Positions 15,937-43,040 of a stretch of DNA of 43,040 nt are shown here, one piece after another. The stretch comes from Polynucleobacter sp. Lineage in GTDB: Bacteria; Pseudomonadota; Gammaproteobacteria; Burkholderiales; Burkholderiaceae. Under the pieces are notes generated by a model that worked only from the letters and a program-made list of their open reading frames with translations, was not told where the DNA came from and searched no databases. The first letter of the stretch is position 1, and the number at the start of each line of letters is the position of its first letter. The DNA lies in the NCBI GenBank assembly GCA_030696845.1, contig JAUYRJ010000086.1, positions 1 to 43,040 of the forward strand, in the 5' to 3' direction. The position numbers were made by a program, and so were the translations under genes.

Positions 15937-18771
15937 GTGTTGCCCGTGAAAAAATCCTTACCCAGCAAGCCATTGGTAGTTCAAGCCGATATCGATACAG
16001 AAAAACCATTGGTAGAAGATATTCGCTTATTAGGTCGTATTTTGGGTGACGTGATCCGGGAGCAGGAAGGTAAAGCCATTTATGAATTAGTCGAACAGGT
16101 ACGTCGACTCTCGGTTGGCTTTCATCGTGATCGCGATGAGTCCGCCGACAAGGCCTTAAAGAAATTGCTGAAGGGTCTGTCAAGCGATTTAGCCATGAAA
16201 GTGTTGCGCGCCTTTACCTACTTTAGTCATTTGGCAAATCTGGCAGAAGATCGTCACCACCTTCGCCGCCGCGCTGTTTATGAGCGGATAGGCAATGCCC
16301 AAGAAGGCAGCATTGAAGTGAGTTTTAAGCGGCTACGTTCAGCTGGAATTTCTAGTAAGCGGATTGCAAAGACCTTGGCAAGCAGTTATGTATCGCCCGT
16401 TTTAACAGCGCATCCAACCGAAGTTCAGCGCACTAGTATTTTGGATGCCGAGCGTGACATTGCGAATCTCTTGACTGCGCGCGATCAAATTAAAGCGCGG
16501 GCAGATGCCGCGCATCTCGTGATAGGCGGCAAGGATGCCTTGGCGGCGAAAGAGTTGCAACTCAATGAGGCGCAAATTCGGGCGCGCGTAATTCAGTTAT
16601 GGCATACCCGTTTACTGCGTTTTTCTAAGCTTACGGTTGCTGATGAGATTGAAAATGCCCTTAGTTATTACGAAGCTACTTTTTTGCGCGAGATTCCTAA
16701 AATTTATGCAGAACTGGAAGATCATTTAAAGGGTGAGGCGGTGGCCAACTTTTTCAGAATGGGGCAGTGGACCGGCGGGGATCGTGATGGTAATCCGAAT
16801 GTCACAGCCCCAACGCTGGAATATGCTCTAAAGCGTCAAGCTGAACTGATATTGCGCCATTATTTAACCGAGGTTCACTACCTTGGAAGCGAATTGTCGC
16901 TATCAGCGTTATTGGTAAAGACCACACCCAAAATGCAAGCCTTAGCGAAAGCCTCGCCCGATGCGAATGAGCACCGAGTGGACGAGCCCTATCGAAGGGC
17001 TCTGACGGGCATCTATGCGCGTTTAGCCGCCACCTTAAAAGAGTTGACTGGTGGCGATGCTGCGAGACATGCTGTTGCCCCTCAAAATCCATACCCTAAT
17101 GCGCACGCTTTTTTAGCCGACTTGCGTACCATCGAGGCATCCTTGCAAACGCATGCAGCGCAGTCATTGGCGGATCGGCGCCTGCGCCCCCTCATTCGTG
17201 CGGTAGACGTATTTGGATTTCATTTGGCCACGGTGGATTTGCGCCAGAGCTCCGACAAACACGAGGAGGTGGTGGCGGAACTGTTATCGGTAGCTCGCGT
17301 GCACCCGAATTACGCCACCCTTTCTGAGATAGAGAAGCGCACGCTTTTATTGAGTTTATTGAATGACGCTAGGCCATTGCGTGTGCCACAGGCAAGCTAC
17401 TCCGATCTGACTATTTCCGAAATGGCTATTTTTGAAGCCGCTAAAGTCATGCGGACTCGCTTTGGCGAGGATGCGATTCGGCATTACATCATTAGTCATA
17501 CGGAAACCGTGAGCGATTTATTAGAGGTGCTACTCCTCCAAAAAGAGGTGGGTCTAATGCGTGGCACCTTGGATGCCAAAGCCCTTAATGAATTAATCGT
17601 GGTCCCTCTGTTTGAAACCATCGATGATTTGCGTAATGCCGCGCCGATCATGCGCGAGTTTTATGCCTTACCCGGTATAGCGGGTCTAGTGAAGCGTTCG
17701 GGTGCCGAGCAGGACATCATGTTGGGCTACTCGGATAGTAATAAGGATGGCGGCATTTTTACCAGCAATTGGGAGTTGTATTGCGCCGAGATTGCCTTAG
17801 TGAAGCTCTTTGATGCCTTAGCCGAAAGCCATGGCATTCAGCTGCGCTTGTTTCATGGCCGCGGTGGTACGGTGGGGCGAGGCGGTGGTCCGAGCTATGA
17901 GGCGATTTTGGCGCAGCCACCCGGAACCGTTCGTGGGCAAATTCGTTTGACCGAACAAGGGGAAGTGATTGGCTCCAAATACGCTAACCCTGAAATCGGT
18001 CGGCGTAATTTAGAAACCTTGATTGCGGCTACTTTGGAGGCTACTTTATTACAACCCACCAAGCCAGCGACCCCTGTATTTTTGAAGGCCGCCGCTACTC
18101 TATCCGAAGCCAGCATGGCGGCATATCGCCACCTTGTCTATGAGACGCCCGGTTTTGCGGATTATTTTTTCAGCGCGACGCCCATTCGCGAGATTGCCAA
18201 GCTCAATATCGGTTCACGCCCAGCCTCGCGTAAGGCCAGTCAGCAAATTGAGGATTTGCGCGCCATTCCATGGGGATTTAGCTGGGGGCAGTGTCGTTTA
18301 ACCTTGCCCGGTTGGTATGGTTTTGGCTCGGCGGTGGAATCATTCTTAAGTGAGGGTAAGACGAATGGTTTGCAAACGCTACAAAAAATGTATCGCGAGT
18401 GGCCCTTTTTTCGTACGCTTTTATCCAATATGGACATGGCCTTAGCGAAAAGCGATTTGGCTTTAGGCGCACGCTATGGGGAGTTAGTGGCGGATGCGCG
18501 CTTGCGTAAGCGTATTTTTAGCGCGATTGAAGCCGAATGGCAAAAAACAGTGGGCGCATTGGCTCTTATTACAGGCGAGAAGCAGCGACTTGCGAATAAC
18601 CCAGGCCTGGCCCGTTCAATTCGGCACCGCTTTCCGTACATCGATCCCTTGCACCATTTGCAAATTGAGTTGGTACGTCGCTATCGAGAAGGTCAAACCG
18701 ATGAGCGAGTGCAGCGGGGTATTCATATCGCGATCAATGGGATTGCTGCGGGGCTTCGTAATACGGGCTAA
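15937..18771 (+). CDS. ppc: Phosphoenolpyruvate carboxylase
   Basis: An anaplerotic enzyme: PEP + bicarbonate to oxaloacetate + phosphate. The 944-residue protein has all signature motifs: [12 protein letters not shown] near residue 160, the glycine-rich [24 protein letters not shown], and the invariant C-terminus R-N-T-G. There is no ATG near the start: candidates are GTG 15937, TTG 15940 and GTG 15946, and none has a strong ribosome binding site. It is followed by convergent genes 8 bases away. Confidence 0.97.
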
Positions 18772-35523: not shown

Positions 35524-35681
35524 TTATGAAGTTTAAGGGGAATTACGCCATGACATAAAATAAAACCAAGGTATTGGGTCGGACTCTGTTCATAATGAAC
35601 TACTCATTACCGCTAATACCAATGCATCTGATCAAGATTACGGGGCTATGGCGGGAGGCGCAAACGGGAGGCGGTATTCAC

Positions 35682-36311
35682 TTGGATCAAAAAACCTGTA
35701 GCAGCTTTTTGCTTGGCTTACTTTTATTTGGACTCTCTTTATTTGGGATTCAATTTGCAATGGCAACAGAAGAACCCAGTTATCGCATACTAGAACAATC
35801 CGAGCCATTTGAGATTCGGCAATATGATCCTTTGATTGTGGCGCAGGTCGAGGTCAGTGGCGATTTGAGTGAAGCCTCAAGCGCTGGCTTTCGATTGATT
35901 GCCGACTATATTTTTGGTAACAATATTTCGGTACAAAAAGGCAGTCCGAGTATTACGGAACCGGTACCCGAAAAAATTGCGATGACGATTCCCGTGATCG
36001 CGGAAAGCAAAACAGATCAGGCAAGTTGGTTTATTCAGTTTGTGATGCCAAAGCAATATCGATTGGACACCCTGCCAAAACCCAATAATCCGCAAGTCAA
36101 GCTCGTGCAGGTGGGCGCCCAAAAAATGGCAGTGATTCGGTTTTCTGGTTTTGTGGGCGAAGATAAATTACAAGAAAAAACGCAGGCATTAACGGAATGG
36201 ATTAAATCGAAAAATGGAGTGATGGTGGGCAGCGCACGCCTGGCGCGCTATAACCCGCCATGGAGCCTGCCATGGACTCGGCGTAATGAAATTCTGATTC
36301 CCGTTCAGTAA
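35682..36311 (+). CDS. SOUL-type haem-binding protein, exported
   Basis: A 209-residue protein with a signal peptide (hydrophobic core F-L-L-G-L-L-L-F-G-L-S-L-F-G, cleavage near A-M-A) and a SOUL/HBP domain: Y-R-I-L-E-Q-S-E-P-F-E-I-R-Q-Y-D-P near the mature start, A-M-T-I-P-V and the C-terminal R-Y-N-P-P-W. SOUL proteins bind haem or tetrapyrroles. It directly precedes bchI, which may hint at a tetrapyrrole role. The start is uncertain: I chose TTG 35682, behind GGAGG, because upstream starts (TTG 35574, ATG 35595 and 35622) give an unlikely leader. Confidence 0.7.
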   Translation: MDQKTCSSFLLGLLLFGLSLFGIQFAMATEEPSYRILEQSEPFEIRQYDPLIVAQVEVSGDLSEASSAGFRLIADYIFGNNISVQKGSPSITEPVPEKIAMTIPVIAESKTDQASWFIQFVMPKQYRLDTLPKPNNPQVKLVQVGAQKMAVIRFSGFVGEDKLQEKTQALTEWIKSKNGVMVGSARLARYNPPWSLPWTRRNEILIPVQ

Positions 36312-36395: not shown

Positions 36396-37415
36396 ATGGC
36401 TTTGAACTTTCCTTTTACCGCAATCGTTGCTCAAGACGAAATGAAGTTGGCTATTGCCATCTCCACAATTGATTCCACTATCGGTGGCGTTCTAATCTTT
36501 GGCGATAGGGGAACGGGCAAGTCGACCACGATTCGGTCTCTGGCCGCCCTATTGCCGCCCATGAAGGTGGTGGCTGCTTGCCCTTATCACTGCGACCCTG
36601 CGGGTCCAGCATTGTGTTTTGAATGCCAAGACCGTATAGCGCGCGGTGAGAAATTAAAGACGGAATTGGCGCCAGTGCCGGTGGTGGATATGCCGCTCGG
36701 TGCGAGCGAAGACCGTGTTGTCGGAGCGCTTGATATTGAAAAAGCCCTCTCACAAGGCATCAAAGTATTTGAGCCGGGCTTGTTAGCAAAAGCGAATCGG
36801 GGTTACTTATACATTGATGAGGTTAATTTACTGGAAGATCACCTGGTTGATTTACTCATTGATGTGGCCGCCTCGGGGGAGAATGTGGTGGAGCGTGAGG
36901 GTCTAAGCATTCGTCATCCGGCGCGCTTTGTTCTCATTGGCAGCGGTAACCCGGAAGAGGGCGAGCTACGCCCGCAAATGCTCGATCGATTCGGTTTATC
37001 GGTCGAAGTCAGAACCCCGCACGATTTAACTCAGCGCGTTGAGATTATCAAACGCCGCGATGCCTTCGAGCGCGATCCAGTAGGATTTCTGAGGCAGTAT
37101 GAGGCGAGTGAAGCGGAATTCAAAGACAGCGTTCTCAGTGCCCGCAAGCGCTTGCCAAAGGTCACGGTAGGGGATGACATATTAATGAAAGCCACTCAAC
37201 TTTGCGCTCAACTCGGCACAGACGGTTTGCGCGGTGAATTAACCTTGATGCGCGGCGTCAGGGCCTTGGCGGCTTATGAGGGGGCTCGTAAGGCTACACT
37301 GACGCACCTGAAGCAATTAGCGCCATTGGCGCTGCGTCACCGTTTGCGCCGCAACCCCTTGGATGACAGCAGTTCCACAACGCGGGTCGAGCGCGTATTG
37401 GCTGAGTTTTTCTGA
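36396..37415 (+). CDS. bchI: Magnesium chelatase ATPase subunit I
   Basis: The AAA+ subunit of the BchHID complex, which inserts Mg into protoporphyrin IX at the start of bacteriochlorophyll synthesis. The 339-residue protein has Walker A G-D-R-G-T-G-K-S-T near residue 31, the L-Y-I-D-E-V-N-L-L Walker B segment, and S-G-N-P-E-E-G-E-L-R-P-Q-M-L-D-R-F. A four-Cys insertion (C-x3-C-x8-C-x2-C, about residues 62-78) is unlike the R. capsulatus protein and could bind zinc or be redox-active. The gene appears intact; bchD follows after 6 bases. Confidence 0.95.
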   Translation: MALNFPFTAIVAQDEMKLAIAISTIDSTIGGVLIFGDRGTGKSTTIRSLAALLPPMKVVAACPYHCDPAGPALCFECQDRIARGEKLKTELAPVPVVDMPLGASEDRVVGALDIEKALSQGIKVFEPGLLAKANRGYLYIDEVNLLEDHLVDLLIDVAASGENVVEREGLSIRHPARFVLIGSGNPEEGELRPQMLDRFGLSVEVRTPHDLTQRVEIIKRRDAFERDPVGFLRQYEASEAEFKDSVLSARKRLPKVTVGDDILMKATQLCAQLGTDGLRGELTLMRGVRALAAYEGARKATLTHLKQLAPLALRHRLRRNPLDDSSSTTRVERVLAEFF

Positions 37416-37421
37416 GTCAAT

Positions 37422-38427
37422 ATGCTTTCTGACGGCGGCCAGTCGATTTGGCATGATGCGCAACTTGCTGCAGCGCTAGTCGCTATTGATTCGCATGGTC
37501 TGGGCGGTATATGCGTTAAGAGTCAGTACGGACCAGTTCGAGATGCATGGTGGCAATTTGTGCAGAGCATGCTGCCGTGTTCCCCTGTTCAGAAAATCCC
37601 CCCTAATACATCAGACGAGCAGCTTCTGGGCGGACTCGATTTAGAGGCGACCCTGGATCAAGGTAAGCCGATTTATAACAGCGGGGTTCTCGCAAGATGT
37701 GATGGTGGATTGGCGCTTCTCCCGATGGCGGAGCGGATGCCATTTTCCACGGTGGCGCTGCTATCGCAAGCGATGGATCGGGGTCGGATTGACTCTGATA
37801 GTCAAGCTGAGCAAAGCGTACGCTGTTTATTTGGTATTGTGGCCTTTGATGAGGGCTTGGGGCCGGATGAGGCAATTCATCCCCGTTTGGCGGAGCGGCT
37901 GGCTTTTCAGATTCACTTAGATCCACTGGGTTTGAATGACTCTCAATCCATATTAGAAATTACTCCTACACTAATCGCTGAGGCAAAAAAAGCACTACCG
38001 CACATTGATTGCGATGCGCGTTTGGTGGAGTCGATCATGCAATCCGCCGCCACCTTTGGGATTGACTCGATTCGGGCTGGCTTATTTGCGATTCGGGCGG
38101 CAAAAGCGTTGGCAGCCTTGCGTAGTCAATCTGCCGTGAGTGAAGATGAGGTAGTGGATGCGGCCCGATTGGTTTTTTCACGCCGTGCGACCCGTATGCC
38201 TACCGCGCATCAGCAAGACCATGAAGAGCAAGAGCCCGCTGATCATTCATCAACACAAGAGGACAGTTCAGATCGCGTGGACCAGGAGCGGCAAGCGGAT
38301 TCGGATCACCAATCGGAGCATGACAAAACTCCGCCCAAAGCAGATCCACCTAGCAGTGATACGCTAGACGAGATGGTGGTCGAGGCCATCCAGGCTGGTA
38401 TTCCTGCGAATCTATTGGCGCAGCTCA
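37422..38427 (+). pseudogene. bchD: Truncated magnesium chelatase subunit D
   Basis: About 335 codons of bchD remain. The N-terminal AAA-like domain (with a degenerate P-loop, as in the family) and most of the acidic, His/Gln-rich linker are present. The C-terminal VWA (integrin-I) domain, which should follow the L-L-A-Q-L segment and carries the MIDAS metal site, is absent. Normal BchD is about 550-600 residues. The frame runs on 24 codons into the IS. Without the VWA domain the subunit should not support Mg chelation. Confidence 0.88.
38424..38427. repeat. Left target-site duplication of the IS (CTCA)
   Basis: CTCA directly precedes the terminal TGAACTG of the IS, and CTCA also directly follows its other end (39697-39700). 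A 4-bp duplication is typical of IS407-group elements. Confidence 0.75.
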
Positions 38428-38479
38428 TGAACTGCCGTCAATTTAGGTCCACGACCAAAGAGAGTTTTTCTATAGTAAA

Positions 38480-39310
38480 TCATTGCAGCAAAATGGGTTG
38501 ATTCTGCAATAGTTTGGGTATTTGGGTTTGGGGTGCTGGTGGTCTGTATCCTAATGCACTATGGGGCCTGACATGGTTATAGTGCTTGACCCATTCCCCG
38601 ACGATGATCTGGGCTTCTTTCAGGCTATAGAAGATCTCACCATCCAAAAGGTTATCTCTGAAGGTGCCATTAAAGCTTTCACAAAAGCCGTTCTCCCAAG
38701 GAGATCCTGGGGTGATGTAAGCGGTTTTGACTCCCATGCCAGATAACCAACTACGCAGTTCCTTGGCAATAAATTCTGGGCCATTATCACTACGGATGTA
38801 CTCCGGGATGCCGTGCATGATCATGGCGTTCGCTAGTTGTTCAATCACTTGAACCGATCCAATCCTTCTAGCGCAGTGGATCGTTAAGCATTTCCTGGTG
38901 AACTCATCAATCATGGTGAGCATCCGGATCTTGCCACCATAAGCATCTCTGATAAAGACAAAATCGTAGCTCCACACATGGTTGGGGTGAGTCGCTCGCA
39001 GGCGCATGCAGCTTCCATCGTTTAGCCAGAGCCTGCCTCTAGGGGGTTGCTTTTGTGGGATCTTCAGGCCTTCCTCTCGCCAGATGCGAGCGACCTTGCT
39101 TGTCGTAGCTTGTCCCCAACCGCTATTACGCATCATGCCTGCAATAAATCGATAACCATATCGGCCATAGGTGCCGGCCATCCGAATCACTTCAGCTCTG
39201 AGCGGCTCTTCATCACTTCTTGGCAATGGCATATAGCGATACGCGGTTCTTGATAGCCCTACTAATTCACAAGCTAAGCGCTCCGATGCTGAGTATTTCT
39301 GTATCAACAC
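38480..39310 (-). CDS. IS3-family transposase OrfB (DDE integrase core)
   Basis: A 276-residue frame with the rve integrase core: S-Y-D-F-V-F (first Asp), R-S-D-N-G-P-E-F (second Asp), and W-E-N-G-F-C-E-S-F-N-G (catalytic Glu). G-R-Y-G-Y-R near the N-terminus is the IS3-family HTH_21-type segment. Its own GTG start at 39310 is doubtful, because the frame is open upstream to the frameshift site, so the active transposase is probably the OrfAB fusion. Confidence 0.93.
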   Translation of the reverse strand: MLIQKYSASERLACELVGLSRTAYRYMPLPRSDEEPLRAEVIRMAGTYGRYGYRFIAGMMRNSGWGQATTSKVARIWREEGLKIPQKQPPRGRLWLNDGSCMRLRATHPNHVWSYDFVFIRDAYGGKIRMLTMIDEFTRKCLTIHCARRIGSVQVIEQLANAMIMHGIPEYIRSDNGPEFIAKELRSWLSGMGVKTAYITPGSPWENGFCESFNGTFRDNLLDGEIFYSLKEAQIIVGEWVKHYNHVRPHSALGYRPPAPQTQIPKLLQNQPILLQ

Positions 39311-39339
39311 CTGAGCAGCTGTCTTGCGTTTAGCAGGGC

Positions 39340-39621
39340 TTAGAAGTTTCCCTTAATGACTTCCTTAAGCATGACTTCGCGTAGCGATAAGTCCGCTACG
39401 AGTTTCTTAAGCCGGGTATTTTCCAGCTCCAGATCTTTGTACTTTTTAGCTTGATCGACCTTCATGCCGCCGTACATTTTTCTCCAGCGATAGTAGCTTT
39501 GCTCAACAGTACCCACTTCTTTGCAAGCCTGGGCGAGGGTTTTGCCATTGGTAGTTAACACATCGATTTGACGCAATAAGGTGACGATTTGCTCGGGTTT
39601 AAGACGTTGGCCTTTTGCCAT
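39340..39621 (-). CDS. IS3-family transposase OrfA
   Basis: A 93-residue protein with an N-terminal helix-turn-helix (M-A-K-G-Q-R-L-K-P-E-Q-I-V-T-L-L-R-Q) and a C-terminal leucine-zipper-like coiled coil. It binds the IS ends and forms the first part of the OrfAB transposase. AGGAGCG lies 6 bases before the ATG. Confidence 0.92.
   Translation of the reverse strand: MAKGQRLKPEQIVTLLRQIDVLTTNGKTLAQACKEVGTVEQSYYRWRKMYGGMKVDQAKKYKDLELENTRLKKLVADLSLREVMLKEVIKGNF
39346..39352 (-). other. Programmed -1 frameshift site GGGAAAC
   Basis: In the orfA frame, codons GGA and AAC form the slippery heptamer G-GGA-AAC (X-XXY-YYZ), two codons before the orfA stop. Slipping back one base continues into the open orfB frame, giving a fused OrfAB transposase. 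Confidence 0.75.
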
Positions 39622-39696
39622 ATGTAGCGCTCCTTTAAGTGAGAGATTATCAAAAATCCTCTCTTTTGGAGTGGTGCTAAAAATTAGGTCAGTTCA

Positions 39697-39700
39697 CTCA
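39697..39700. repeat. Right target-site duplication of the IS (CTCA)
   Basis: Identical to the four bases at 38424-38427 on the other side of the element, directly after the terminal CA of the IS. Confidence 0.75.
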
Positions 39701-39972
39701 CGAGTGTGCTTCAGGTAGGACTGAATCAGTTCCGATTCATGACGAAATCGCTGCGCATTGACCTCGTTATCAAAGACGCAAAATAAACCCTGCTTATGCA
39801 AGCTAGGTTTAGTGCTGAATCCGCCGCCATGACCTGAGCCGAGGACTTTAAAAAATTGTAAACCGGGTACGCCATACAAAGGAAAGCGACCAATCACGTA
39901 GCGCGATAAGCCCCACCAGAAAGAGTCTGGAGCAATGTCGACGAGTACTAATACTGCGGTCTGATTGCTCAT
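39697..39972 (-). pseudogene. crtA: Truncated spheroidene monooxygenase
   Basis: The first 92 codons match the N-terminal part of CrtA: W-G-L-S-R-Y-V-I-G-R-F-P-L, P-G-L-Q-F-F-K-V-L-G-S-G-H-G-G-G-F and the following alpha/beta segment. CrtA is about 240 residues and makes spheroidenone-type keto-carotenoids. About 150 residues are missing. The stop codon is provided by the terminal TGA of the IS. It lies 11 bases downstream of ppsR on the same strand, so the original order was aerR-ppsR-crtA. Confidence 0.82.
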
Positions 39973-39983
39973 CTAGGCATGAC

Positions 39984-41405
39984 CTAAGAGTCGTTATCTT
40001 CGGATGCGCTATTCTCAATGATGCCAAAGCGACGCATTTTAATGTAAAGACCCTGACGCGATAAGCCAAGCAATTCAGCGGCGGAGGCGCGATTAGACAT
40101 CGTCAGCTCCAACGCAGAAATGATGCACAGCTTTTCAATAATATCGGTGGTTTCGGTGACAATTTCTTTGAGCGGCACTTTGCCAACCAATTCGGTTAGG
40201 TGACGAGCATTCTTTTCGATATTGCTTGGTGTAGGCCCGGCTTGTGTAACTCGCTTTGAAATACTTCGAATGCTAAAGGCAAAGGCAGGGGGATTATGGG
40301 AACGAATATCCACTCCTGAAATCTCCGCTTCGAGCGGCGAGCCGCCATCATCTGAGGTGATCGTGGTGGCGTAATTTTTAATCGATCCGTGTTCACGTAG
40401 TGTGTTGAGAATAATCCGCAGATCAATGGTAGAGCGCCCGAGCCACTGCTCTAAGGATTTTCCGATAACGTATTCTGCCTGTGCGGAATGGGTCATCTGC
40501 ACAAATGCTTTGTTCGATGAGATTATTAAACCTTGGAGATTAGTGATCACAAAGGCATCATTTGATTCATCGATTGCTTTAAGGAGTAAGGAGCTATGCT
40601 CCCCTTGATTAATCGACGTTGGATTAATTGATAGGGGATTTAGGCTGATCAGGTAAACACTCTGTCGACCTTCTCGGAGTAGGGCGCTCGAGATTTCCAC
40701 TTCATCGTTGGAGTTTTGGAGGTGGGCTGTCCGATTCTGCTGGAGATTGCCGATCTTAAATTCGGCAAAATAGTCATGAATCGATTCTTGATCCGCTTTT
40801 GAAAAGAGATCTACAACCAGCTTACCAATGAGTTTTTTTGAGTCGCCAAGTAAGTTTCCAGACGCTTTATTGGCTTCCAAAATTTTTAAGGTTTGACTAT
40901 CAATCAATAAATAGGCTTGATCGGTGATGTTAAAGAGTTGTGAATATCGATTTTCAATGGCGTGCAAGCGGGTGTAATCGCGCTCGATTTCTTGTTGGGC
41001 GTCGACGAGGCGTTGCTGAAGCGTAGAAATACTCCGCAAATCCCTTCCAATGGCTAATATTTTTTGTTGCTTTGGAAGATGAAGCGTGCTGAATAAGATA
41101 GGTAAAGACTTTCCGTCGGAAAGTAGTTGATTAATTTGCCGCCACTTTTGTGCGCCTTCTGTTATTTCTGAGTCCAATAAGGCATGCACTTTTGGATGAC
41201 TGTCGATTGCAATCGTGTCCATCCACTTTTTGCCGATTAAATCCGAGCCATCGTCAATACCGATTTTTTCACCATGAATAACGTCATGAATTTTTCCGCT
41301 GGTATCGAGAACAAAAACCACATCAGCCGCATACGAAACGAGTGAGATGGCGGCCTTAATATCGACCGAATCTAAAAGATCTTTTGGGTAATCGGTTGGT
41401 GCCAT
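39984..41405 (-). CDS. ppsR: PpsR/CrtJ transcriptional regulator
   Basis: A repressor of photosynthesis genes under oxygen and light control. The 473-residue protein has three PAS-like regions (about 20-125, 155-250, 275-385) joined by a Q-rich helix (L-Q-Q-R-L-V-D-A-Q-Q-E-I-E-R), and a C-terminal Fis-type helix-turn-helix N-R-A-S-A-A-E-L-L-G-L-S-R-Q-G-L-Y. The redox Cys before the HTH is present (near residue 427), but it is the only Cys; Rhodobacter PpsR has a second one for an internal disulfide. I chose ATG 41405 (M-A-P-T-D-Y-P), 25 bases after the aerR stop; the open frame extends into aerR. It appears intact. Confidence 0.93.
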   Translation of the reverse strand: MAPTDYPKDLLDSVDIKAAISLVSYAADVVFVLDTSGKIHDVIHGEKIGIDDGSDLIGKKWMDTIAIDSHPKVHALLDSEITEGAQKWRQINQLLSDGKSLPILFSTLHLPKQQKILAIGRDLRSISTLQQRLVDAQQEIERDYTRLHAIENRYSQLFNITDQAYLLIDSQTLKILEANKASGNLLGDSKKLIGKLVVDLFSKADQESIHDYFAEFKIGNLQQNRTAHLQNSNDEVEISSALLREGRQSVYLISLNPLSINPTSINQGEHSSLLLKAIDESNDAFVITNLQGLIISSNKAFVQMTHSAQAEYVIGKSLEQWLGRSTIDLRIILNTLREHGSIKNYATTITSDDGGSPLEAEISGVDIRSHNPPAFAFSIRSISKRVTQAGPTPSNIEKNARHLTELVGKVPLKEIVTETTDIIEKLCIISALELTMSNRASAAELLGLSRQGLYIKMRRFGIIENSASEDNDS

Positions 41406-41430
41406 TAGGTAGACTTTTTTAATTATTATT

Positions 41431-42315
41431 TTAGGCTGAAGAAGGGGCACCCACTTCGGTCGTTACGTTTAAAATACGATTTAGCTGATGCAGGGCTTCT
41501 TCAGGTGTACTTGATTTGATATCTGCTTTGATATGACCAAAACATGTAGCGTCGTTATTATAAAGAGATCCACCGACCAGAACAATAATTTCGGGGTTTA
41601 GCGACCGTTTTCGTATGATCTGAATCAATTCAGGCAGTTGATCGAGTTGCTCATAGTCTGCGATGGATAGGGCAACTGCGGTTAATAGCTTGGAGGCGAT
41701 TGTTTTCTTAATGTATTCAATGCTGGGAACGCTTTCATTGAACACGCTCCAACCAGCCCAAGTGAAAAAATTAGCCAAAATTAATGGGCCTAATGTGTGG
41801 TGTGAACCGGGCGAGGCGCTAATTAATATTCGCTTCGTTAGCGTAGAGTCAACCTTGGTTTCTTGAAATAAATGATCAAGGCTATAGATCATTTTTTGTA
41901 ATCGCCCTGTGGCAATCGTCACCTCTGTAAAACTTAAGCTGTCGCTTACCCATTGCTCGCCGAGTTTGCGCGCGATGCGTGGTATTAGATCGAGCACGAT
42001 GGAATCTACACTCACTCCTAAATTTAATAACTCGGCTATAAACTGTTCCGTTTGCTGTGGACCTTCGTTTGTAATAAGCGAAACAAACCGATTCGCGTGG
42101 TCTTCAATGATTTGCCAAGTCAGATGAGCAGAAGAATGGGGCCGCAAGTTCAGCTCACCCGACTCCAAAATGGTGTTGAGTAGTCGGTCCTCAATCCAAT
42201 CGCGGTTACCCACTTGATTTACTCGACCAACCCCTTTCACCATGGCTAGCACCTTGCCCGTATCTAAGGTGGCGGGGTCAACCGACGGTGTTTGGTTTTC
42301 TTTCTTCGCCAGCAT
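41431..42315 (-). CDS. aerR: AerR/PpaA-type antirepressor with B12-binding domain
   Basis: A 294-residue regulator that in other phototrophs binds PpsR/CrtJ and, with cobalamin, relieves repression. The C-terminal half has a Rossmann-like B12-binding fold with S-P-G-S-H-H-T-L-G, in place of the classical D-x-H-x-x-G, and V-L-V-G-G-S-L later. The N-terminal half contains a helical domain (L-D-L-I-P-R-I-A-R-K-L-G-E-Q-W near residue 107). It is full length and divergent from bchF, upstream of ppsR, the usual order in PpsR loci. Confidence 0.9.
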   Translation of the reverse strand: MLAKKENQTPSVDPATLDTGKVLAMVKGVGRVNQVGNRDWIEDRLLNTILESGELNLRPHSSAHLTWQIIEDHANRFVSLITNEGPQQTEQFIAELLNLGVSVDSIVLDLIPRIARKLGEQWVSDSLSFTEVTIATGRLQKMIYSLDHLFQETKVDSTLTKRILISASPGSHHTLGPLILANFFTWAGWSVFNESVPSIEYIKKTIASKLLTAVALSIADYEQLDQLPELIQIIRKRSLNPEIIVLVGGSLYNNDATCFGHIKADIKSSTPEEALHQLNRILNVTTEVGAPSSA

Positions 42316-42363
42316 AGATAGCTTCTATTTTCGTAGGGTGTAAAAAAATAAACTTGGTTAGAA

Positions 42364-42381
42364 TGTAAAGCAATTATTACA
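42364..42381. promoter_or_regulatory. PpsR binding site, perfect TGT-N12-ACA
   Basis: TGTAAAGCAATTATTACA matches the PpsR/CrtJ consensus exactly. It lies 49 bases before the aerR start and 140 before the bchF start, so it may serve both divergent promoters. Confidence 0.7.
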
Positions 42382-42421
42382 GTTGCAATCTAACACGGGT
42401 AATAAAAACATGAAATATTGG

Positions 42422-42439
42422 GGTAAACCCTGTATTACA
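42422..42439. promoter_or_regulatory. PpsR-like site, one mismatch
   Basis: GGT-N12-ACA (GTAA...TTAC core) differs from the consensus by the first base only. It starts 58 bases after the first site. Confidence 0.45.
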
Positions 42440-42474
42440 TAGGGTAAATACGGTATTTTGTAAAGTAAATTAGT

Positions 42475-42492
42475 CGTAAAGTTTTGTTTACA
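42475..42492. promoter_or_regulatory. PpsR-like site, one mismatch, near bchF
   Basis: CGT-N12-ACA with core GTAAA...TTTAC differs from the consensus by the first base only. It ends 28 bases before the bchF start, where it could block the promoter. Confidence 0.5.
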
Positions 42493-42520
42493 TAGTACGC
42501 ACAAAACGGAGCAGTTCATC

Positions 42521-42909
42521 GTGAGCAAGTTTAGTAAACCCCTTTACACAGAAGAGCAGCGCAAACGGCGCAATGCATCTGTGTGGACGCTCGTGCAAGG
42601 CATTCTTGCTCCCGTTCAATTTCTGGTCTTTGTGATCAGTTTTTGTTTAGTGGTGCGCTATCTCTTTACAGGTAATGGCTATGAAGCGGCAACGGTATCA
42701 ATCGTGATCAAAACGGTTCTGCTGTACCTCATCATGATTACCGGCTCCATTTGGGAAAAGGTGGTCTTTGGAAAATATTTATTTGCCAAGAGCTTCTTTT
42801 GGGAGGATGTCTTCAGCATGCTCGTCTTGGCATTGCATACGGCCTATTTGTATTGTTTGTGGACTGGAAAGCTAAATTCAATCGAGCTAATTTATTTGGC
42901 ACTTGCGGC
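42521..42909 (+). pseudogene. bchF: 2-vinyl bacteriochlorophyllide hydratase, truncated by IS
   Basis: BchF hydrates the 3-vinyl group in bacteriochlorophyll synthesis. About 130 codons are left: GTG start (GGAG 9 bases upstream), Y-T-E-E-Q-R-K-R-R-N-A-S-V-W near the start, three hydrophobic spans, and W-E-D-V-F-S-M-L-V-L-A-L-H-T near residue 105. Family length is about 160-175, so the last span is missing. The IS begins at 42910 and the frame stops a few codons inside it. Confidence 0.85.
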
Positions 42910-43040
42910 TGAACTGCCGTCAATTTAGGTCCACGACCAAAGAGAGTTTTTCTATAGTAAATCATTGCAGCAAAATGGGTTGATTCTGCAATAGTTTGGG
43001 TATTTGGGTTTGGGGTGCTGGTGGTCTGTATCCTAATGCA
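42910..43040 (-). mobile_element. Second copy of the same IS (partial, at window end)
   Basis: 131 bases identical to the beginning of the element at 38428, in the same orientation, starting TGAACTGCCG right after bchF sequence. The flanking four bases (CGGC) differ from those of the first copy, so this is an independent insertion. The far side lies beyond the window. Confidence 0.9.

Follow-up and report, generated by a model that had tools for sequence, protein, structure and literature searches.

Phototrophy is scattered across the Proteobacteria, and the loss of a photosynthesis gene cluster is often inferred from its bare absence. The text available to us on Citromicrobium JLT1363 describes the loss of the whole cluster at a conserved site, and proposes phages and insertion sequences (ISs) for it while leaving the exact mechanism open (PMC3338782). 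For the type strain of P. duraquae, the accessible part of the report gives a complete cluster without visible pigment (PMC5018217), and an analysis of Rhodobacteraceae discusses transfer versus loss in a main text that, in the portion available, does not use the words 'remnant' or 'pseudogene' (PMC6052148). Here we analyze a 43,040-nucleotide stretch of a Polynucleobacter draft genome (the window; positions 1 to 43,040 of contig JAUYRJ010000086.1, forward strand, assembly GCA_030696845.1), whose right end carries the remains of a photosynthesis gene cluster. This is the right end of contig 36 of the draft (86 contigs, 1.95 Mb; estimated completeness 99.01%, contamination 0.15%), and together with a second contig, C6, the window forms a collinear remnant of a Polynucleobacter photosynthesis gene cluster at the locus that the cluster occupies in relatives. 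We put a probability of roughly 90% on the reading that the cluster was removed by a recent IS-associated double deletion and that phototrophy by this route was lost with it. Like Citromicrobium JLT1363, the organism, which is related to freshwater Polynucleobacter, is a close relative of phototrophs without the cluster at a conserved chromosomal site; however, a single hypothetical gene replaces the cluster there, according to the text seen (PMC3338782), whereas here IS and gene fragments still stand at the joins. Cluster loss is already known; what makes the present genome a clear new case of it is that copies of the IS persist at the breakpoints. The likely mechanism can still be seen: two large deletion joins carry the same IS, the fragments are undecayed, and there are relatives with a full cluster. 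The case suggests that a phototroph can become a heterotroph through a few IS events. We found no description of it in the literature on Polynucleobacter clusters, IS-mediated loss and remnants, as covered by titles and the openings of abstracts with few subscription journals.

We reached the relatives through the PpsR repressor, which is 83-86% identical in six congeners, and compared their cluster loci. Blocks were compared in three of them, G010, G045 and G066, and in G010, a single-contig genome, the cluster was read open reading frame (ORF) by ORF. A PpsR scan of a contig collection gave eight loci, seven in Polynucleobacter or Burkholderiaceae metagenome-assembled genomes and one a weak match in Oceanospirillum; an exact scan of that collection with the IS end gave no match. 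The nearest known clusters are those of these three relatives, of metagenome-assembled genomes labelled Polynucleobacter meluiroseus or Polynucleobacter sp., and of P. duraquae (PMC5018217). The clusters of G010, G045 and G066 have the order bchI-bchD...crtA-ppsR-aerR-bchF...aerR2 and the same neighbours as the remnant, which runs bchI - bchD' - IS - crtA' - ppsR - aerR - bchF' - IS - aerR2' (primes mark broken genes; the last join is inferred), and which differs from them in having IS at the joins and no reaction centre. On the upstream side of the cluster, the window matches all three genomes collinearly, and the C6 gene adjoining aerR2 is a cluster neighbour in all three; longer collinearity along C6, with gaps, was seen with G045 only. 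The more distant congener G106 has the same cluster order. Comparison with relatives' intact clusters, which the earlier note on this sequence had proposed, shows that the breakpoints bound two blocks, of about 18.5 and 23.3 kb, lying in the same order in the three genomes. From bchD to crtA, 18,543, 18,543 and 18,528 bp are missing relative to G010, G045 and G066, respectively, and from bchF to aerR2 the corresponding figures are 23,279, 23,283 and 23,282 bp (lengths from breakpoint coordinates, precise to a few bases). The total loss is about 41.8 kb of 47.5 kb, approximately seven-eighths of the cluster.

In G010 the first block contains the rest of bchD, bchO, a prenyl synthase gene, a methyltransferase gene, bchC, bchX, bchY, bchZ, pufL, pufM and pufC, followed by a crtI-family gene, crtB, crtC, crtD and most of crtA. 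The second contains the end of bchF, bchN, bchB, bchH, bchL, bchM, puhA, puhB, puhC, acsF and puhE, and further bchG, bchP, hemA, dxs and the 5' half of aerR2, as well as two ORFs without an NCBIfam match, one that is weakly hydrogenase-subunit-like, and two unscanned ORFs. The crtE-, crtF-, crtB- and crtC-like names in G010 are best hits under the curated cutoff. The G010 cluster is whole as far as seen, and G045 and G066 show the same spacing together with pufLM.

The four breakpoints of the remnant each coincide with an end of the same IS element, with left ends at bchD and bchF and right ends at crtA and aerR2. The bchD gene (37422..38427, plus strand) keeps its 5' part of 335 codons and has lost the VWA part, matching only the first part of the profiles NF009943 and TIGR02031; its orthologue in G010 encodes 626 aa. 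Directly after it lies a complete IS3-family element of 1269 bp (38428..39696, minus strand), recognized by its transposase families, its ends, and homologous copies in congeners. Its orfB (38480-39310; NF033516 208.8 bits against a cutoff of 160, with rve and rve_3 domains) and orfA (39340-39621; HTH_Tnp_1) are both on the minus strand, and it ends in TGAACTG...CAGTTCA with imperfect terminal inverted repeats (38428-38444 and 39680-39696, 76% complementary). The transposase pair, the length of 1.27 kb and the imperfect repeats are shared with the IS3 family; what sets this element apart is that only two copies were found in the genome, both at photosynthesis-cluster deletion joins. One side of the IS adjoins codon 335 of bchD and the other codon 92 of crtA, the spheroidene monooxygenase gene, of which the first 92 of about 228 codons remain (39697..39972, minus strand). 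This piece matches NF045923 partially (41 bits, below the cutoff of 300) and is 77-79% identical to the first 92 codons in the six relatives. The bchF gene (42521..42909, plus strand; Pfam BCHF and TIGR02020) retains about 130 of 171 codons, the rest being deleted; it is 82-84% identical to those of the six relatives, and its last codon is completed by IS sequence. It is cut by the left end of a second IS copy (42910..43040, minus strand; 131 bp, 100% identical), inside which the contig stops. A right IS end lies at the end of C6 (18823-18940), abutting a second aerR-like gene, aerR2, that is 5'-truncated by the IS (locus L005 on C6, 18377-18820). Counterparts of aerR2 are present besides aerR in G010 (whole), G045 and G066, the resemblance between the two types being about 28-31%.

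The earlier note had reported three broken structural genes beside two intact regulators, and these observations hold: bchD is cut before its VWA part, crtA and bchF keep about 92 and 130 codons, and bchI, ppsR and aerR are complete. However, a fourth gene is broken, and this one, aerR2, is a third regulator of the cluster. The cuts are real, but those in bchD and crtA are one IS site and that in bchF is the left end of the same IS, a cause that had been missed.

The same-direction IS sequence on both sides of the 3.2 kb crtA'-ppsR-aerR-bchF' segment could in principle make this a mobile composite segment inserted from elsewhere. Its order and orientation are those of the relatives' cluster, however, and an insert is not expected to be collinear between former neighbours, so that we regard this origin as extremely improbable. 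An assembly or binning artefact, in which the cluster would be whole or merely interrupted by IS while some 42 kb were dropped as contigs broke at IS, accords with the fact that the window contig and C6 both end inside IS, leaving bchF and C6 unjoined. On the other hand, four simple insertions should have left the 3' parts of bchD, crtA and bchF and the 5' part of aerR2 with IS ends attached, and none was found with the DNA of the two G010 blocks. The search of the genome turned up just two left and two right IS ends, the element being found nowhere else in it; their orientation at the breakpoints fits two IS copies, and the estimated completeness is 99%. We therefore consider an artefact very unlikely.

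We searched the genome for the missing genes with the DNA of both G010 blocks and with three protein families, using 14 genomes as a control set for the Pfam searches. Block 1 found only the retained edge of bchD. With block 2, matches were limited to the two edges, at bchF and on C6, and to places on contigs C85 and C49, which by tblastn are homologues of dxs (C85) and hemA (C49); the C85 piece also carries a prenyl synthase gene, 40% identical to one in the G010 cluster. The remainders of bchD, bchF and crtA were not found elsewhere in the genome by this DNA search, which is blind to strongly diverged copies, and carotenoid genes were not sought at the protein level. PF00124 (PufLM), PF02514 (BchH) and PF00148 (BchNBYZ) had no match in the genome, and matched 1 (Synechococcus), 5 and 4 of the 14 control genomes, respectively. 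The features by which we would recognize a functional photosynthesis gene cluster, namely pufL and pufM, BchH with the reductases, and complete bchD, bchF and crtA, are absent from the draft. Since there is no reaction centre and most bacteriochlorophyll and carotenoid genes of the cluster are gone, phototrophy by this route should not be possible in the living cell. The suggestion in the earlier note that phototrophy is being lost thus gains strength, with about 41.8 of 47.5 kb absent and no match to the three families, while its other suggestion, an intact second copy elsewhere, finds no support in the draft genome. A replacement by rhodopsin was also sought (PF01036), and the lack of matches is uninformative, as no control genome matched either. 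Reuse of BchI and truncated BchD for a cobalt chelatase, an idea prompted by the available part of PMC9227772, was dropped because PF02514, which covers CobN, was without a match.

Three genes of the remnant are complete. The first is bchI (36396..37415, plus strand), encoding the Mg-chelatase ATPase subunit I of 339 aa (NCBIfam TIGR02030 501 bits, cutoff 467); it has the same length as in G010, and its full-length identity to G066, G045 and G010 is 86-87%. The photosystem repressor gene ppsR (crtJ; 39984..41405, minus strand) encodes 473 aa with PAS domains and HTH_8, a Fis-type helix-turn-helix, and passes the equivalog cutoff of TIGR02040 (394 bits, cutoff 275.4). It is 83-86% identical to those of the six relatives, and the aligned part is free of stops. 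We place its start at the ATG at 41405, and regard the start of the 488-aa ORF as too early because the relatives align only from about 41405. The third gene, aerR (41431..42315, minus strand; 294 aa), encodes an AerR/PpaA-type B12-binding regulator (Pfam B12-binding PF02310 33.0 bits, cutoff 32.1); no NCBIfam model reached its cutoff. It is 73-77% identical to those of the six relatives, all of which have it between ppsR and bchF. In the accessible text of two papers, AerR of R. capsulatus is reported to bind cobalamin and to modulate PpsR/CrtJ in a light-dependent manner (PMC6199135, PMC5362033). Judging from the B12-binding domain and the place beside ppsR, the product here is AerR/PpaA, with a predicted cobalamin and light function.

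We compared broken and intact genes for signs of decay. The broken pieces have no internal stops. Ratios of nonsynonymous to synonymous substitution rates (dN/dS) are given for the genome against relatives only where dS was unsaturated, so that crtA and aerR, saturated throughout, have no value; the ranges among relatives are those of the pairs listed, and the row 'soul' (35575-36308), which had been read in the wrong frame, was excluded. The values are 0.04-0.08 for the bchF piece (0.04-0.07 among relatives), 0.16 for the bchD piece (0.12-0.14), 0.03 for the aerR piece on C6 (0.005-0.03), 0.03-0.04 for ppsR (0.02-0.03) and 0.03 for bchI (0.02-0.04), and thus match the range among relatives or slightly exceed it, whether the gene is broken or intact. 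As dS was mostly saturated, we added relative-rate tests against G066 and G010 with G106 as outgroup; all 14 gave χ2 < 3.84, showing no significant excess on this lineage, although the tests are weak for short pieces. To judge from these comparisons, the loss of the cluster looks recent. Since broken and intact genes behave alike, intact ppsR, aerR and bchI are as expected after a recent loss.

The earlier note had inferred that the light/redox repressor pair could act on other targets. Selection of ppsR and aerR, and also bchI, for light or redox control of non-photosynthetic genes would agree with the intactness of both regulators, the low dN/dS of ppsR (0.03-0.04) and the retention of a shared putative TGT-N12-ACA box (see below), and the long AerR of Rhodobacter capsulatus affects genes beyond the photosystem, according to the text available (PMC6199135). 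However, the broken bchD, crtA and bchF pieces are equally undecayed and unaccelerated, and therefore nothing about continued use of the regulators can be read from conservation. In addition, no target outside the cluster was identified (no genome-wide search was made), the aerR paralogue is broken, and only 3 of the 151 genomes surveyed in the genus have a PpsR match and no PF00124 match, namely this one, a draft that is incomplete and has an ordinary cluster contig, and a third with a weak partial match. We consider such selection unlikely, and rate as slightly less likely still that, with the photosystem lost, PpsR-AerR persists as an independent light/redox switch acting on other genes and BchI is available for another role. 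The orphan-regulator idea is possible, and there is no positive evidence for it; other targets are neither shown nor needed to explain the locus. The intact ppsR and aerR look more like remains of a recent loss than like genes retained for a new function.

The distribution in the genus bears on the same point. We surveyed 151 of 186 genomes of the genus, this one included, comparing the PpsR and PF00124 lists by reading: PpsR matches were found in 60 and PF00124 matches in 62 (61 above cutoff). The three with PpsR and without PF00124 are this genome (G000), G070, an 81% complete draft with an ordinary crt-ppsR-aerR-bchF stretch on a 7.8 kb contig, and G085, whose PpsR match is weak and partial (18 bits). 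PF00124 without PpsR was found in G025, G028, G101, G125 and, below cutoff, G072. When the survey is restricted to genomes with completeness of 90% or more and contamination of no more than 5% (117 genomes), PpsR is present in 45, of which 44 have PF00124 and one, the present genome, does not. We therefore rejected the view that orphan ppsR recurs in the genus, the other two cases being an incomplete draft (G070) and a weak match (G085). More generally, ppsR, aerR or bchI alone is no proof of phototrophy or of a new regulatory role. As a separate observation, in G070, a distant congener, bchF is followed by bchM (locus L093 on contig C67), unlike the bchF-bchN order in G010, which suggests either a differently arranged cluster or an assembly join.

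Returning to the double deletion, we propose that an IS3-family element inserted in the cluster, and that two deletions via the IS, of about 18.5 kb from bchD to crtA and 23.3 kb from bchF to aerR2, would have left one IS copy at each join. The most likely route is recombination between same-direction IS copies or deletion next to an IS copy. The genes ppsR, aerR and bchI would then be intact because the loss was recent and they chanced to lie outside the deleted blocks. The flanks of the second IS site, CGGC and AGTT, do not match, as recombination predicts. At the first site, CTCA stands on both sides of the whole IS (38424-38427 and 39697-39700), and these flanks, in bchD and crtA, are 18.5 kb apart in the relatives. 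Target duplications of the IS3 family are short, 3-5 bp. Among the full-length homologous copies in congeners with readable flanks, 3 of 16 show a match of 3-4 bp as judged by eye (20 rows minus four, namely the copy studied here and three with unreadable or absent flanks).

Several points weigh against this history. The CTCA on both sides resembles the target duplication of one simple insertion, and flanks left by recombination between two copies should agree only by coincidence, with a probability of about 1 in 256 for four bases; either the match is such a coincidence, or it points to another route, such as an insertion with the duplicated site becoming involved in the deletion. The join of bchF through IS to C6 is inferred, both contigs ending inside the IS, and since the draft consists of 86 contigs and its completeness is estimated at 99.01%, it may lack a small part of the genome. 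Diverged copies escape the DNA search, and the three families sought at the protein level exclude carotenoid genes. As to recency, most dS values of this genome are saturated, and the calculable dN/dS are at or slightly above the relatives' range; the rate tests use few changes (3 versus 5 for the crtA piece) and, for aerR, 184 of 294 sites, and the aerR piece on C6 is nearly accelerated (χ2 2.27 and 3.77).

The intergenic region between aerR and bchF, about 73% identical as a whole at the DNA level, contains a putative PpsR/CrtJ box, TGT-N12-ACA (42364..42381, no strand assigned), carried in the equivalent position by all seven sequences compared, this one included; the motif is as described in the accessible text of PMC6199135. 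It occurs five times in the window, and we made no genome-wide search for PpsR boxes because it is too short to be meaningful in 1.95 Mb without conservation. With the putative box kept near a conserved block, the ppsR-aerR pair could still regulate its own promoter. That block, about 50 bp long on the bchF side (42441-42493, GGTAAATACGGTATTTTGTAAA..TTTGTTTACA), is near-invariant in the seven aligned sequences and is probably the bchF promoter with further regulator sites.

Searches of the window with Rfam gave no matches at gathering thresholds. Upstream of the remnant, the window carries a 944-aa ORF (15937-18771), which we take to be phosphoenolpyruvate carboxylase-like, at a site where the collinear neighbours lie just about 70-80 bp apart in G010 and G045.

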